DNA from: Acidobacteriaceae bacterium | Lineage (GTDB): Bacteria > Acidobacteriota > Terriglobia > Terriglobales > Acidobacteriaceae | Assembly (NCBI GenBank): GCA_025356095.1 | Contig: JANXUR010000007.1 | Span: forward strand, 1-37,432 | DNA: 37,432 bases | Direction of reading: 5' to 3' | Part shown: positions 6,257 through 11,532 of the stretch, one piece after another | How the letters are laid out: each line of letters opens with the position of its first letter | Position numbering within the stretch: the first letter of the stretch is position 1 | The notes under the pieces: model-generated | What the model was told of the DNA's origin: nothing | The model's input: only the letters and a program-made list of their open reading frames with translations | Database searches by the model: none | Translations under genes and position numbers: made by a program

Positions 6257-6333
6257 CTTCGACTGCCCGCGATACAATCGGTGGAAGACGTTGTATGCCA
6301 GACTGCCTCACGGGCCCACAGCGCCTTTCAGAA

Positions 6334-6365
6334 CGAATGACCGACGAATGACCGACGAATGACCC
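6334..6365 (+). repeat. 11-nt tandem repeat abutting the rodA start, with overlapping micro-ORFs
   Basis: CGAATGACCGA is repeated at 6334-6344 and 6345-6355, with a third partial copy CGAATGACC from 6356, ending just before rodA ATG 6366. Each full copy opens a five-codon reading frame ATG ACC GAC GAA TGA (6337-6351 and 6348-6362), and the stop of each overlaps the next ATG as ATGA. No Shine-Dalgarno sequence stands in front of rodA. Whether these micro-ORFs are translated is inference only. Confidence 0.75.
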
Positions 6366-7454
6366 ATGGCCCGACTTGCATCTATCCGCGACTTTGACTG
6401 GGGACTGCTGGTATACGTCCTGCTGATTTGTGCGCTGGGTGTGGTAGAGATTCATTCCGCCACCGTTGGGACAAAGTTCGCCGGGTCAGAGACAAAACAG
6501 ATTTACTGGATCATTGCCGGGCTTGTGGTGATGTACATTGTGAGCAACATTAGCTACCACGCGCTGCTCGACCGAGTGCCGTGGATGTATGGCATTTCAC
6601 TGGTGGCGCTGCTGGCGGTGAAGGTGTTTGGGGCGACGGCGCTGGGCGCGAAACGCTGGATCCGGTTGCCGGGCGGAACCCACTTTCAGCCGTCGGAGTG
6701 GGTGAAGTTGATTCTGATTTTGGCGATGGCCAAGTATTTTTCGGACAATCGCAGTTCTGAGCTGTCGTGGGCAGATTTTTTAAAGGCGGGGACGCTGGTC
6801 GGTTTGCCGATGCTGTTGGTGCTGTCACAGCCAGATTTGGGTACCGCCCTTACCTACGTGCCGGTTGCGATGATGGGGCTATTTTTGGGCGGCTTGCGCT
6901 GGAAGCAGGCCGGGATCGTGCTGCTGGTGGTGGTGGCCGTCTTGCCCGTGGCTTACTTCAAGCTCAAACCCTATCAGCGCGAGCGGTTGACCAGTTTTGT
7001 GGCTCCAGAAGCCGATGCCAAAGGCTCGGGCTATCAGGTGACCCAGTCGCTGATTGCGGTGGGGTCGGGCGGTTTGTGGGGTAGCCCCACCAAGGGGTCG
7101 CAGACCCATTTGTCGTATTTGCCGATTCCGCAGACCGACTTCATCTTTGCAGCCTTTGCCGAAGAGCGGGGCTTTGTGGGCGCGATGGCGGTGTTGTTGC
7201 TATACTTTTTAGTGCTGATGCGTTTGACCAGCCATGCCCAGACGGCACCTGACCGCGCTGGGGCGTTCATCGTAATGGGCGTCTTTGCGGTACTGGCCTT
7301 CCACATTCTGGTCAACGTTGGCATGGTGGTGGGCTTTATGCCGGTGACCGGCATCCCGCTGCCGCTGATGAGCTATGGCGGCTCATCGGTGCTGTTTATG
7401 TTTTTGGCGCTGGGAATTGTGATGAATGTGCGTATGCGCCGATTCGTGAGCTAG
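6366..7454 (+). CDS. rodA: Rod-shape-determining protein RodA (SEDS peptidoglycan polymerase)
   Basis: A 362-residue polytopic inner-membrane protein of the SEDS family, the glycosyltransferase that polymerises lipid II into glycan strands for cell elongation together with a class B penicillin-binding protein. The key residues are present: FQPSEWVKL with E111, and QTDFIFAAFAEERG with D258, which matches the catalytic Asp of RodA. The GxPLPLMSYGGSS motif near residue 330 ends the protein as in RodA/FtsW. The length is usual for RodA and shorter than FtsW. Its partner genes (mreBCD, mrdA) are not in the window. The start follows an 11-nt tandem repeat and lacks a clear ribosome binding site. 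Confidence 0.95.
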   Translation: MARLASIRDFDWGLLVYVLLICALGVVEIHSATVGTKFAGSETKQIYWIIAGLVVMYIVSNISYHALLDRVPWMYGISLVALLAVKVFGATALGAKRWIRLPGGTHFQPSEWVKLILILAMAKYFSDNRSSELSWADFLKAGTLVGLPMLLVLSQPDLGTALTYVPVAMMGLFLGGLRWKQAGIVLLVVVAVLPVAYFKLKPYQRERLTSFVAPEADAKGSGYQVTQSLIAVGSGGLWGSPTKGSQTHLSYLPIPQTDFIFAAFAEERGFVGAMAVLLLYFLVLMRLTSHAQTAPDRAGAFIVMGVFAVLAFHILVNVGMVVGFMPVTGIPLPLMSYGGSSVLFMFLALGIVMNVRMRRFVS

Positions 7455-7995: not shown

Positions 7996-10900
7996 ATGAA
8001 TAAGGAACTATTTGTCACCTCGACGCCACACGAAACCAAAGTGGCGATGACCGAGGATGACCAGCTCGCGGAAATCTACCTCGAGCGCGAAAACGAATAC
8101 ATTCTGGCCGGTTCGGTTTACAAGGGCCGGGTCACCCGCGTGTTGCCCGGCATGCAGTCGGCCTTTGTGGATATTGGCCTGGAGCGCGATGCCTTTCTTT
8201 ACGTCTCCGATTTTTTCGAGATGGAAGAAGAGGACGAAGACTTGGAAGCGGCGGTGGCCAAGAGCCGTCCCGTGATACTGGCGTCACCGAGCGTACCCGC
8301 CAGTTATACCGAGGTAGAAGAAGAGGTTGAGGAAGGCAGCGACTTGGAAGCCGCCGGGCTCGACGCGGGCTTTGACGGACCCGATGAAGGCGATGAAGCT
8401 GACGAACTTGAGGAGTACCAGTCTTCGACGGCTGTGTCGCAGGCATCCTCCACGATTGCCGGAGGATCGCATGCAACCGGAGAGGCCGGAGGCCGCGATG
8501 GTAGGGGCCGCCGCCGCCGCCGGGGTCGCCGCAGTCGCCCCGCCAACGATGGCAGTCCGGTTCCCACGGAAGCGACGGCCGACGGTAGCTTGTCGCCTGA
8601 TTCACCAGTGGATTCGCAAGCCGACTCGCGAGCGGATGCAAGAATCGAAGAGGATTCTGCGCCGCGCTCTTCGGGGAAAGCGTCTTCCGCCGCCACCTAT
8701 TCCCCCGAGCGGCCTACATCTTACGCGCCCATGGTGTTGCCGGGTGAGTCGCTCTCGAAATATCGCCAAAAAAATCCGCCCGCCCCGGCGGCCCATGCCG
8801 CAACAATTGAAAGCGTCCCTGAGGTAGAGGCTGCGCAAACTCCTGTGGCGCGCGTGGAGGAGCCGCAACCGGCAGTGGAAGCCGAAGTAGCAACCGTGCC
8901 GGTGGCGCCAGTGGTTAGCGAGGAACGAGCCCCGGTGCGTCCCTCGCGGCGCGCGATGCCAGCGTATGCGCCCATGGTGTTACCGGGCGAGTCGCTGAAG
9001 AAGTATCGTCAGGTGGCCCCGGAAGCACCTGTTCCTGTTGCCGAACCGGAAGCCATGGTGGAAGCCATGGTGGAAGCCGCTACCCCGCCGGTCGCTGAAG
9101 CTTCGCATGCCGAGCATGTGGTTGCGGAAGCGGTTGCCGCAGAACCCGAGCCAGTGCACCCAATTGCTGCCCCTGAGCCGGAAGCAGCAGGGGCGATTGA
9201 GCATCATGAGGTAGTGGCAGCCGAGTCGGAAGCAGCGGTGCGTCGCGCGTATGTCGCGCCGTATGCAGAAGTGCATCCGGGTGCGCCTGCGGGGCATGAG
9301 GCGGTGGTTGGGCACGGTGTGAGGACTGAGCATGCCGAACACACTGAACACACTGAACACACTGAACACACTGAACACACTGAACACACTGAACACACTG
9401 GGATCCCTGAGGCTGCAGTGCTCGCCGCATTTGCTCACCCTGATGTGGTTGAAGCAGACGACGACTCGGCTGAACGCGAAACGTCTGTTGTGGAAGGAGT
9501 GCAACAAGCTGAGCAACAAGCTGCGCCGCCTGTTGCCGAGGCCGTTGGCGAAGTCGCCGAACCGACGCACCCAGAAAAGGTCTTGGAGACGCATTCGCAC
9601 TCCGTTGAGCACGCGCATTACGAGGCACCACAACCCGTAGGCGACCACCACGAGCCCGCCCTGATTGCAGGCACGAACGAAGCGGACGACGATGACGACC
9701 AGAACGACGAGGACGACGAGGACGACGAGCCGCACTTCTCGGAGTTGACGTCTGCGTTGCCGCCCGACGTTTCGCCTACCGACTTTGCTGAACAGCGCGC
9801 TGAGGCTGAGCGCGAAGCGGCCCGCATCCTGCCCGGTGGCGCGATGACAGAAGAAGAGATTGACGAAGAAGAAGCCGAACTGCGCGCCTATGGTGCGGAT
9901 TCAGATGAAATGGGCTTCGATGATCTGGATGAATTCGAAGAAGAGACGCAGGAGGCCACCAACTTCGTACGCAGTGCCAAGGCTGGCCTAGGCGACGATG
10001 CGGACGCAGACGAAGGCGAAGACGCGGACGAAGACGACTTTGAGGACGAAGCAGGCGACGCAGACTACGCAGACGACGCAGACGAAGCAGGCGACGAAGC
10101 CGACGAAGCACAAGAAGAAGCCGAGCGTCTGGCTGCGGGAGGGTACGAGTCTGGTAGCGCCGAAGTACGTGCACCCGGTAGTGCACGCTTCCAGCAGCGG
10201 GCACGCCGCAGCGGACGCGACCGCAACGACCGTGGTGATCGTGGCGGAGACCGTGGCGGGCAGCGCCGAGGCGGCAAAAACAGTGGCGCGCCGCGCCGCT
10301 TTGCTGGACGCCGCGACAGCGGTCCCCGGCCCTTAATCAGCGACCTACTGAAAGAAGGGCAGGAGATCATAGTCCAAATTGCCAAGGAGCCCATTGCCAA
10401 AAAGGGCGCGCGCATCACCAGCCACATCGCGCTGCCTGGAAGATTCTTGGTTTATATGCCGACGGTGAATCATGTAGGCGTGTCACGCAAGATTGCTTCG
10501 GACGAAGAGCGGTTGCGGCTCAAGAGAATTGTTGTGAGCGAACGCGAAAACGGTCAGGGCGGCTTCATCGTCCGCACCGCAGCGCAGAATGCTCCGGAAG
10601 AGGAATTGCGTGCCGACATTCGCTTCCTGAAGAATTTGTGGACGGAGATGAAGCAGCGCGCCGAAGGCAAAAAGCCGCCTACCCTCATCTACCACGATTT
10701 GAACGTGGTAGAGCGGGTGTTGCGTGATCAGGTGACGCGCGACTTCACCACCATTTGGGTGGATACCGAGGTGGAATATGAGCGGGTGCTGCGCTTCGCC
10801 CAACGCTTCCAGCCCTCGCTGGTCAAGCGCGTCAAGCTGTGGTCAAAGAACACCCCGCTGTTCGATCAGTTTGGCGTGACGGATGACTTTAACAAGGCGC

Positions 10901-11532
10901 TGAAGGCCAAGGTATGGCTGAAAAATGGCGGATACATCGTCATTAACCAAACCGAAGCGCTGGTGGCGATAGACGTGAACACGGGCAAATACGTGGGCAA
11001 GACGGCGCGTCTGGAAGACACCATCACCAAGACCAACGTGGAAGCATGCGCAGAGATCGTGCGGCAGATTCGGCTGCGCGATTTAGGCGGCATCATCATC
11101 CTCGACTTTATTGATATGGATGAGCGCCGCAACAAGGCCAAGGTTATGCAGTCGCTGGAAGAGGCAATGAAGAACGATCGCGCCCCTTCCAAGATTCTCC
11201 AGTTCAACGACTTCGGCCTTGTGGCCATTACCCGCAAGCGGGTGAAGCAGTCGCTGGAGCGCACCGTAGGTTCGTCGTGCGAATACTGCACCGGCACCGG
11301 CTATGTGAAGTCGGTGACCACAGTATGCAATGAGATTTACGTGGAAATGCGCAAGATCACGCACCAGTTACAGCAGAAGAGCGATGTGATGCTGCGCGTG
11401 CATCCTGAAGTTGGCAAGATGCTCAAGTCGCAGAATGGCCGCTGGATTCAGGAACTGGAAGAACTGACGTCCAAAACAGTGATTGTGAAGGGCGACCCGC
11501 TGCTGCATCAGGAACAGTTCGACATCGCGTAG
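7996..11532 (+). CDS. rng: RNase E/G family endoribonuclease with a ~700-residue insert in the S1 domain
   Basis: A single-strand-specific endoribonuclease that processes rRNA and mRNA. Residues 1-74 begin as normal RNase E/G (NKELFVTSTPHETKVAM, then GSVYKGRVTRVLPGMQSAFVDIGL of the S1 fold). At about 75 the S1 domain is interrupted and resumes at about 780 with ISDLLKEGQEIIVQIAKEPI. The catalytic core follows, with metal-binding D993 (VAIDVNTG) and D1037 (IILDFIDM) and the Zn-link C1095/C1098 (CEYC). The protein ends soon after, like RNase G. The insert has an acidic first part, YAPMVLPGESLSKYRQ at 243-258 and its near-copy with K for S at 324-339, (EHT)7 at 448-468, long Asp/Glu runs, and an Arg/Gly-rich tract just before the S1 domain resumes. 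ATG 7996 has GGAG five bases upstream and matches the family N-terminus; a GTG at 7900 is rejected. Confidence 0.95.
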   Translation: MNKELFVTSTPHETKVAMTEDDQLAEIYLERENEYILAGSVYKGRVTRVLPGMQSAFVDIGLERDAFLYVSDFFEMEEEDEDLEAAVAKSRPVILASPSVPASYTEVEEEVEEGSDLEAAGLDAGFDGPDEGDEADELEEYQSSTAVSQASSTIAGGSHATGEAGGRDGRGRRRRRGRRSRPANDGSPVPTEATADGSLSPDSPVDSQADSRADARIEEDSAPRSSGKASSAATYSPERPTSYAPMVLPGESLSKYRQKNPPAPAAHAATIESVPEVEAAQTPVARVEEPQPAVEAEVATVPVAPVVSEERAPVRPSRRAMPAYAPMVLPGESLKKYRQVAPEAPVPVAEPEAMVEAMVEAATPPVAEASHAEHVVAEAVAAEPEPVHPIAAPEPEAAGAIEHHEVVAAESEAAVRRAYVAPYAEVHPGAPAGHEAVVGHGVRTEHAEHTEHTEHTEHTEHTEHTEHTGIPEAAVLAAFAHPDVVEADDDSAERETSVVEGVQQAEQQAAPPVAEAVGEVAEPTHPEKVLETHSHSVEHAHYEAPQPVGDHHEPALIAGTNEADDDDDQNDEDDEDDEPHFSELTSALPPDVSPTDFAEQRAEAEREAARILPGGAMTEEEIDEEEAELRAYGADSDEMGFDDLDEFEEETQEATNFVRSAKAGLGDDADADEGEDADEDDFEDEAGDADYADDADEAGDEADEAQEEAERLAAGGYESGSAEVRAPGSARFQQRARRSGRDRNDRGDRGGDRGGQRRGGKNSGAPRRFAGRRDSGPRPLISDLLKEGQEIIVQIAKEPIAKKGARITSHIALPGRFLVYMPTVNHVGVSRKIASDEERLRLKRIVVSERENGQGGFIVRTAAQNAPEEELRADIRFLKNLWTEMKQRAEGKKPPTLIYHDLNVVERVLRDQVTRDFTTIWVDTEVEYERVLRFAQRFQPSLVKRVKLWSKNTPLFDQFGVTDDFNKALKAKVWLKNGGYIVINQTEALVAIDVNTGKYVGKTARLEDTITKTNVEACAEIVRQIRLRDLGGIIILDFIDMDERRNKAKVMQSLEEAMKNDRAPSKILQFNDFGLVAITRKRVKQSLERTVGSSCEYCTGTGYVKSVTTVCNEIYVEMRKITHQLQQKSDVMLRVHPEVGKMLKSQNGRWIQELEELTSKTVIVKGDPLLHQEQFDIA
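9337..9399 (+). repeat. 9-nt in-frame tandem repeat, 7 copies, encoding (Glu-His-Thr)7
   Basis: GAACACACT is repeated seven times without a mismatch from 9337 to 9399 within the RNase insert (residues 448-468). Because the unit is nine bases, gain or loss of copies keeps the reading frame. The perfect identity of the copies suggests recent expansion. The surrounding residues HAEHT extend the pattern imperfectly. Confidence 0.95.

Follow-up and report, generated by a model that had tools for sequence, protein, structure and literature searches.

A strictly kept peptide in a 707-residue, predicted disordered insert within the S1 domain of an acidobacterial RNase E/G suggests a docking platform

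RNase E scaffolds decide which enzymes cooperate in bacterial RNA decay and are best known as the C-terminal tails of the proteobacterial enzymes. Here we describe an RNase E/G gene of Acidobacteriaceae bacterium (assembly GCA_025356095.1), which lies in a stretch of 37,432 nucleotides, positions 1 to 37,432 of contig JANXUR010000007.1, called the window below. The S1 domain of the encoded protein is interrupted by an insert that is longer than all the rest of the enzyme and that contains two copies of a short conserved peptide. The gene and the parts of its product, with lengths in amino acids (aa), are:

7996..11532, + strand: RNase E/G family ribonuclease, 1178 aa, ATG start at 7996, stop codon ending at 11532 (open frame and Pfam)
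7996..8211, + strand: residues 1-72, N-terminal part and first S1 half, ending LERDAFLYVSD (alignment with E. coli RNase E before the gap)
8212..10332, + strand: S1 insert, residues 73-779, 707 aa, predicted disordered (hidden Markov model (HMM) anchors, composition and, weakly, AlphaFold2)
8500..8538, + strand: Arg-rich tract GRGRRRRRGRRSR, residues 169-181 (conserved island; ratio of nonsynonymous to synonymous differences (pN/pS) 0.231)
8722..8769, + strand: docking-type peptide, copy 1, YAPMVLPGESLSKYRQ, residues 243-258 (core pattern)
8965..9012, + strand: docking-type peptide, copy 2, YAPMVLPGESLKKYRQ, residues 324-339 (core pattern)
9337..9400, + strand: perfect 9-bp tandem repeat, in frame, 7.1 copies, encoding (EHT)n (repeat scan)
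9844..9948, + strand: acidic islands TEEEIDEEEAE and DEFEEET, within residues 617-651 (conservation)
10156..10203, + strand: conserved SAEVRAPGSARFQQRA island, residues 721-736 (conservation)
10204..10314, + strand: basic RG/RD-rich tract directly before S1 resumes, residues 737-773 (net charge +11 in residues 724-773)
10333..11529, + strand: residues 780-1178, second S1 half and remaining enzyme (PF10150 nuclease part and small-domain part), no C-terminal extension (Pfam; post-insert length of relatives)

In this assembly a single RNase E/G was found. The protein belongs to the RNase E/G family, as it scores 472 bits against TIGR00757 (cut-off 326), with PF10150 (RNase_E_G) at residues 813-1083 (E=8.9e-101, 337 bits, cut-off 25.5) and PF20833, the RNase E/G thioredoxin-like domain, at residues 1095-1177; it stays below the cut-off of the RNase G equivalog NF008689 (492 versus 594 bits). 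D993 and D1037, the metal ligands by analogy with E. coli RNase E, and C1095 and C1098, by the same analogy the zinc link, are all present, as a preliminary description of this DNA had stated. In an alignment of 50 sequences, neither aspartate varies and each cysteine reaches at least 90% conservation. Judged from its sequence, the 471 residues outside the insert are an intact enzyme, with ribonuclease activity predicted by family membership. In 400 random pairs among 64 relatives, the first S1 half had a pN/pS of 0.062 and the catalytic part one of 0.147.

The borders of the insert were set by two profile anchors (residues 1-72 and 780-1100) built from the 50-sequence alignment. Two stretches of the protein, residues 5-72 and 771-1110, align with E. 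coli RNase E (2bx2), in whose chain seven residues lie between them. The preliminary description had placed an interruption of the S1 domain at residues of about 75-779 and had noted that the insert outweighs the remaining enzyme of about 470 residues; the anchors confirm both points, with residues 73-779 and 707 versus 471 aa. The insert is rich in Ala, Glu, Asp and Pro, and contains 15% order-promoting residues (W/C/F/I/Y/V/L), 24% D/E and 8% basic residues. Its net charge per 50 residues ranges from -23 to +11, and most 50-residue stretches are net negative. In the AlphaFold2 model of the protein, residues 74-780 have no secondary structure, and the mean predicted local distance difference test scores (pLDDT) of 10-residue blocks are about 29-46. 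This is weak evidence for disorder because the model as a whole is of low quality (mean pLDDT 50), the S1 half included. A fold search with the model returned E. coli RNase E (28-36% identical) at template modelling scores (TM-scores) of 0.11-0.15 by query length, values so low that the domain arrangement in the model has to be regarded as poor; the Caulobacter S1/5'-sensor structure 4oxp was also found (E 1e-4). A confident S1 domain was built neither in this model nor in that of a relative, L077 (mean pLDDT 62). Based on composition and these poor models we regard the insert as predicted disordered.

To place the insert among its relatives, we read 159 loci, which came from a search of Acidobacteriota with follow-ups, from 80 named public records and from six plasmid or chromid records; the latter are the whole outgroup. 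Inserts were parsed in 147 loci, and the 12 left out comprise six cut by a contig end, one 10-base stretch and five with split frames. In these five (L083, L102, L129, L138 and L144, all among the 80 named records), the S1 and the catalytic halves lie in different frames with the break inside the insert, which may reflect assembly errors or real frame breaks. Loci L071-L144 were counted with the family by 71-81% identity and record names, without a taxonomy call, and some records represent the same genome twice, leaving 99 distinct inserts among the 101 from Terriglobia. The 40 loci from other Acidobacteriota were a manual choice among the top-scoring matches listed and are therefore biased towards nearer relatives. 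The survey of insert lengths that the preliminary description had called for gave 28-874 aa across the parsed inserts of the phylum. With 394-874 aa (median 469) in 91 inserts of the same family or its nearest relatives, the 707 aa found here are not peculiar to this genome. Nine other Terriglobia inserts have 317-524 aa, and the 40 from other Acidobacteriota 28-552 aa (median 288.5). In the outgroup, the corresponding stretch measures 19 aa in Klebsiella rng, 38 aa in Parabacteroides and 69, 140, 171 and 244 aa in four alpha-proteobacteria. The sequence after the insert is of nearly constant length, 397-399 aa in 97 of 101 Terriglobia frames (353, 383, 391 and 407 aa in the other four) and 398-407 aa in 39 of the 40 other Acidobacteriota (329 aa in one), compared with 681-982 aa in the four alpha-proteobacteria. 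As only about 400 residues follow and there is no C-terminal extension, the insert is the only room for a scaffold in these enzymes.

The preliminary description was right about the position and size of the insert and about the intact enzyme; what it missed is a kept peptide at residues 243-258 and 324-339, which makes the insert more than filler. Peptides of the type GYQPI[IL]LPGES[IL]SKYR were counted by their core, [LM]PGE[STNFA][LIVMR]x[KRV], a pattern written after the sequences had been seen. The core occurs in all 101 parsed Terriglobia inserts (0.04 of 101 expected in shuffled inserts), in 0 of 40 parsed inserts of other Acidobacteriota and in 0 of 6 outgroup records. It is present once in 74, twice in 24 and three times in three Terriglobia inserts, and the copies begin 105-356 residues into the insert. 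Across 131 copies the residue frequencies are L 0.98, P, G and E 1.0, S 0.93, I/L 0.99, S 0.82, K/R 0.99 and Y 0.83; P, G and E are prescribed by the search pattern, which also restricts some other positions. Among 445 windows of 15 residues in the inserts of the 64 relatives, the peptide is the most conserved one (0.91, median 0.40), and its pN/pS of 0.124 is close to that of the catalytic part. Three other blocks of the insert gave values of 0.58-0.67 in the same comparison, in which uncertain alignment may inflate pN. The two copies in the protein described here share 15 of 16 residues and only 8 of 16 codons, which shows that the second copy is no fresh duplication.

A degenerate DNA pattern of the peptide gave 60 matches in 50 of 60 genomes of the family (reversed control, 0/60), and every one of the 60 lies within the RNase E/G gene; the search covered the exact pattern only. 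Of these matches, 35 were placed in 30 loci that were read, 15 by being in frame with the anchors and 10 by sequence or coordinates. The S1 half lies upstream in frame in 29 of the 30 loci, and the thirtieth, at a contig end, continues into the catalytic part. By its exact pattern, the peptide is therefore private to the enzyme, and the idea that it is shared with other proteins was rejected. Among the 10 genomes without the exact pattern, one has a cut gene, two are of low completeness, and in all six that could be read, variants such as MPGES, LPGESLAR, LPGESLSR or LPGEALQK were present. For the remaining one, G414, which is 99% complete, no RNase E/G catalytic match was obtained, corresponding to a loss or an assembly gap. 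A further genome of the family, G265, has two RNase E/G genes on different contigs (C26 and C71; L038 and L045), each with a long insert (572 and 771 aa) that contains the peptide. In one group of the family (loci L036-L050), WDGG often stands just before the second copy, and WDG[GV] is found in 17 of 101 Terriglobia inserts, as if the copies had specialised. In the AlphaFold2 model of the relative L077 (864 aa, LPGES at residue 182), the blocks 171-180 and 181-190 reach a pLDDT of 62 and 72, compared with 27-40 before them, and a helix with a pLDDT of about 82 spans residues 387-411. The rise could mean that the peptide favours a particular shape, or it could just echo how conserved the peptide is.

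The peptide is one of seven islands that keep their order in the 64 relatives against a fast-changing background; the others are the Arg-rich tract, TEEEIDEEEAE, EFEEET, an EAQAEAE stretch, a VRAPG piece and the basic tract before S1 resumes. The 9-bp repeat accounts for just 21 of the 707 insert residues, and a run of the peptide it encodes is absent from every other parsed insert; its length (9337-9400) possibly varies by slippage.

A second peptide, [FYL][EQ]R[IVM]xD[DEHS], which resembles FER[IV]xDD, occurs at least once in 19 and at least twice in 13 of the 40 inserts of other Acidobacteriota (0.015 of 40 expected in shuffled inserts) and in 0 of 101 Terriglobia inserts. It is present in 19 of the 22 inserts of this group with at least 279 aa, the length of the shortest carrier. 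These counts are descriptive, since the pattern was written after 13 of the inserts had been read. On a FastTree phylogeny of the post-insert part of 63 enzymes, the distribution of the LPGES peptide needs one change and that of the FER peptide two. The DNA pattern of the latter was found in 14 of 26 chosen genomes at 21 loci, 16 of them in the RNase E/G gene; four others lie in frames of 62-381 codons that we judged by eye to be non-genes, and one in a 545-aa protein. This protein (L220:1066-2703 in genome G051), which has no Pfam match over cut-off and carries FERITDDDD in a low-complexity stretch, is the only other plausible carrier.

The upstream neighbour of the RNase E/G gene is a cell-shape gene:

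6366..7454, + strand: rodA, upstream neighbour (PF01098)

Among 120 loci searched for neighbours, irrespective of order and strand, a rodA match was found in 90 of 95 with at least 5 kb of upstream sequence, while with enough downstream sequence a helix-turn-helix gene was matched in 6 of 104 and pilM in 6 of 98. Two further repeats were seen in the window, a perfect 11-bp tandem repeat directly before rodA (6333-6364) and a 14-bp repeat (2327-2392, 90% matches) behind an ABC transporter gene.

The genome also has a single PNPase and a single RNase J above cut-off, and a search at E 0.001 matched no RNase Y in it. The PNPase (L227, C52:97354-99393) ends in an acidic and then RGG-rich tail, which is likely disordered and, from its sequence, a candidate for contact with the RNase E/G insert. 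In 63 selected genomes, RNase Y was over cut-off in 0 of 40 with an insert longer than 316 aa versus 12 of 23 with an insert of at most 316 aa, a threshold chosen after seeing the data; it was also over cut-off in six of seven tested genomes without RNase E/G. Collapsed to 25 families, the link has p=0.002, and RNase Y changes about four times on the tree. In a regression on log insert length, p was 9e-8, 0.003, 0.06 and 0.14 at lambda 0, 0.5, 0.9 and 1, and of these four settings the last had the highest likelihood; raw insert length gave p=0.22 at its best lambda of 0.9. We have therefore set aside a trade-off between RNase Y and long inserts as proof of function, as shared ancestry can explain it.

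An insert in the S1 domain of RNase E is a known kind of feature. S1 inserts of about 50-150 aa, which are variable in sequence, charged and predicted to be disordered, occur in alpha-proteobacteria and plants (PMC4245959). In Caulobacter, RNase E fragment 1-274, S1 insert included, binds RhlB, a helicase, and a helix of the insert extends into the predicted RNA site; in Arabidopsis, deletion of the insert from the chloroplast enzyme strongly cut its activity (PMC4245959). The insert described here resembles the alpha-proteobacterial type (4OXP) in that common anchors put it at the same place in S1 and in that it is charged and predicted to be disordered, and the Caulobacter-type insert lies close to the helicase-binding region (PMC4245959). 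It differs in size and context, since those of Tistrella (69 aa), Paracoccus (140 aa), Sinorhizobium (171 aa) and Methylobacterium (244 aa) are about 3-10 times shorter and are followed by 681-982 instead of about 400 residues. The printed range of 50-150 aa is exceeded by the 707 aa found here, and also by the 171- and 244-aa alpha-proteobacterial records, the longer of which belongs to Methylobacterium bullatum RNase E (L256, on a large plasmid). The plant chloroplast insert, which lies outside our anchor comparison and is set beside ours by its published description, is also located in S1 and belongs to the 50-150 aa class (PMC4245959).

The picture of RNase E scaffolds as C-terminal tails is shared by PMC9848016 and PMC12691583. 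The noncatalytic disordered region of RNase E works via binding motifs of 15-40 residues (PMC9848016), and the E. coli-type scaffold resembles our insert as a long disordered region dotted with short conserved binding peptides. It is unlike the insert in being C-terminal, with motifs for PNPase, enolase, RhlB and the membrane, whereas here the region lies in S1. RNase G (rng), on the other hand, is similar in its enzyme part, in the missing C-terminal extension and in the adjoining cell-shape genes (rodA here, mreBCD in the Klebsiella record), but Klebsiella rng has 19 residues between the anchors versus 707, and the protein described here stays under the RNase G equivalog cut-off. For Fibrobacteres/Acidobacteria, a 2011 survey table lists an RNase E/G of 511 aa, with no degradosome predicted from protein size (PMC3071783). 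A literature search, with subscription papers mostly outside its reach, returned no acidobacterial S1 insert, none of such a size, none of scaffold size in an enzyme lacking a C-terminal scaffold, and neither of the two repeated peptides; four spellings of the kept peptide were absent from the same material. Such inserts are thus known in kind, from alpha-proteobacteria and plants, as the preliminary description had allowed for, and compared with these records the size and content of the present one appear to be new.

A peptide that is present one to three times and kept like the catalytic part, while the region around it evolves fast, looks like a docking motif. Judged by its sequence, the insert has what is characteristic of a degradosome scaffold, namely kept short peptides in a predicted disordered region, and this suggests a docking platform for partners. 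We therefore lean, by a modest degree, towards the view that the insert is a degradosome-like docking tether in the S1 loop. As a long flexible tether, the insert would extend from S1 of the cell's only RNase E/G next to the RNA-binding face; the LPGES[IL]SKY peptide, present one to three times, would dock a protein partner, possibly an RNA-decay enzyme, Arg-rich tracts would hold RNA, and acidic, partly helical stretches might space or tune the platform. The scaffold that proteobacterial RNase E bears C-terminally would then sit in the S1 loop. A scaffold-like role had been raised in the preliminary description, with recruitment of partners or condensates as its conjectured forms, and stays the best reading, now with the kept peptide in its support, while an S1 insert near a partner site is already known from Caulobacter and is not in itself new.

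The peptide could also act in cis, by clamping the folded part of its own protein or a neighbouring protomer, with acidic stretches mimicking RNA in the S1 cleft and thereby gating the substrate. The restriction of the exact DNA pattern to the RNase E/G gene (60 of 60 matches) would fit this, as would the gain in confidence at the peptide in the single-chain L077 model, but the model of the protein itself lacks such a peak, and copies that number one to three and start anywhere from 105 to 356 residues after the beginning of the insert suit partner docking better than a latch; we consider regulation in cis unlikely, if still worth bearing in mind. With its pronounced charge blocks (net charge from -23 to +11 per 50 residues) and its Arg tracts, the insert might instead form RNA-decay bodies without a specific partner, similar to the alpha-proteobacterial C-terminal region, where alternating charge patches drive bacterial ribonucleoprotein bodies (BR-bodies) (PMC12691583). 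A driver of condensates that works by charge composition needs no strictly kept 15-residue peptide, whose selection it leaves unexplained, and most 50-residue stretches of the insert are net negative, which makes this explanation improbable in our view.

Length differences of 28-874 aa across the phylum, the fast evolution of most of the insert and the presence of low-complexity DNA repeats are what one might see if a permissive loop had grown in a mostly neutral way through expansion of repeats and selection acted on nothing but the peptide and the Arg tract, for some minor purpose. We give this little credence, because none of the 101 parsed Terriglobia inserts is shorter than 317 aa and six islands besides the peptide, the Arg tract included, keep their order in 64 relatives. 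An artefact of assembly or gene calling across the repeat, a concern of the preliminary description, might be suspected from the 9-bp and acidic-codon repeats in a genome assembled into 120 contigs, and the frame break between the halves in five of 80 named records indicates that such errors may occur in this gene. However, a search of 396 Acidobacteriota genomes matched the catalytic part in 337, all 44 same-family genomes among the matches listed, the present one among them, have a frame of 920-1357 aa, several of them on contigs of more than 2 Mb, and LPGE is present in all 64 inserts parsed from other public records. Since the long frame is found in all 44, we hold an assembly error to be extremely improbable, and the gene stands as read.

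Several points weigh against a docking tether all the same. No partner protein was found, and the peptide is not known to resemble any binding motif of RNase E. In the L077 model, the higher pLDDT may only reflect conservation in the alignment, and the AlphaFold2 model of the protein itself shows no rise at the peptide. The S1 and catalytic halves are in different frames in five of the 80 named records, and the link between long inserts and the absence of RNase Y fades once ancestry is allowed for (lambda 1, p=0.14).

With these points in mind, we extend the docking tether to a broader proposal, which we put forward tentatively and hold with somewhat more doubt than belief: in cells without RNase Y, Acidobacteriota would carry their RNase E/G scaffold in the loop of the S1 RNA sensor rather than C-terminally, at least two lineages would have evolved separate docking codes, LPGES[IL]SKY in Terriglobia and FER[IV]xDD elsewhere, and partners would be offered straight at the RNA-binding face of the only RNase E/G of the cell. 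The kept peptide (GYQPIILPGESISKYR) can itself serve as bait, so that a single peptide makes it possible to test what an acidobacterial RNA-decay complex is composed of. Acidobacteriota are common in soil, and the insert is a candidate platform, larger than its enzyme and placed inside the RNA sensor, in this soil phylum.

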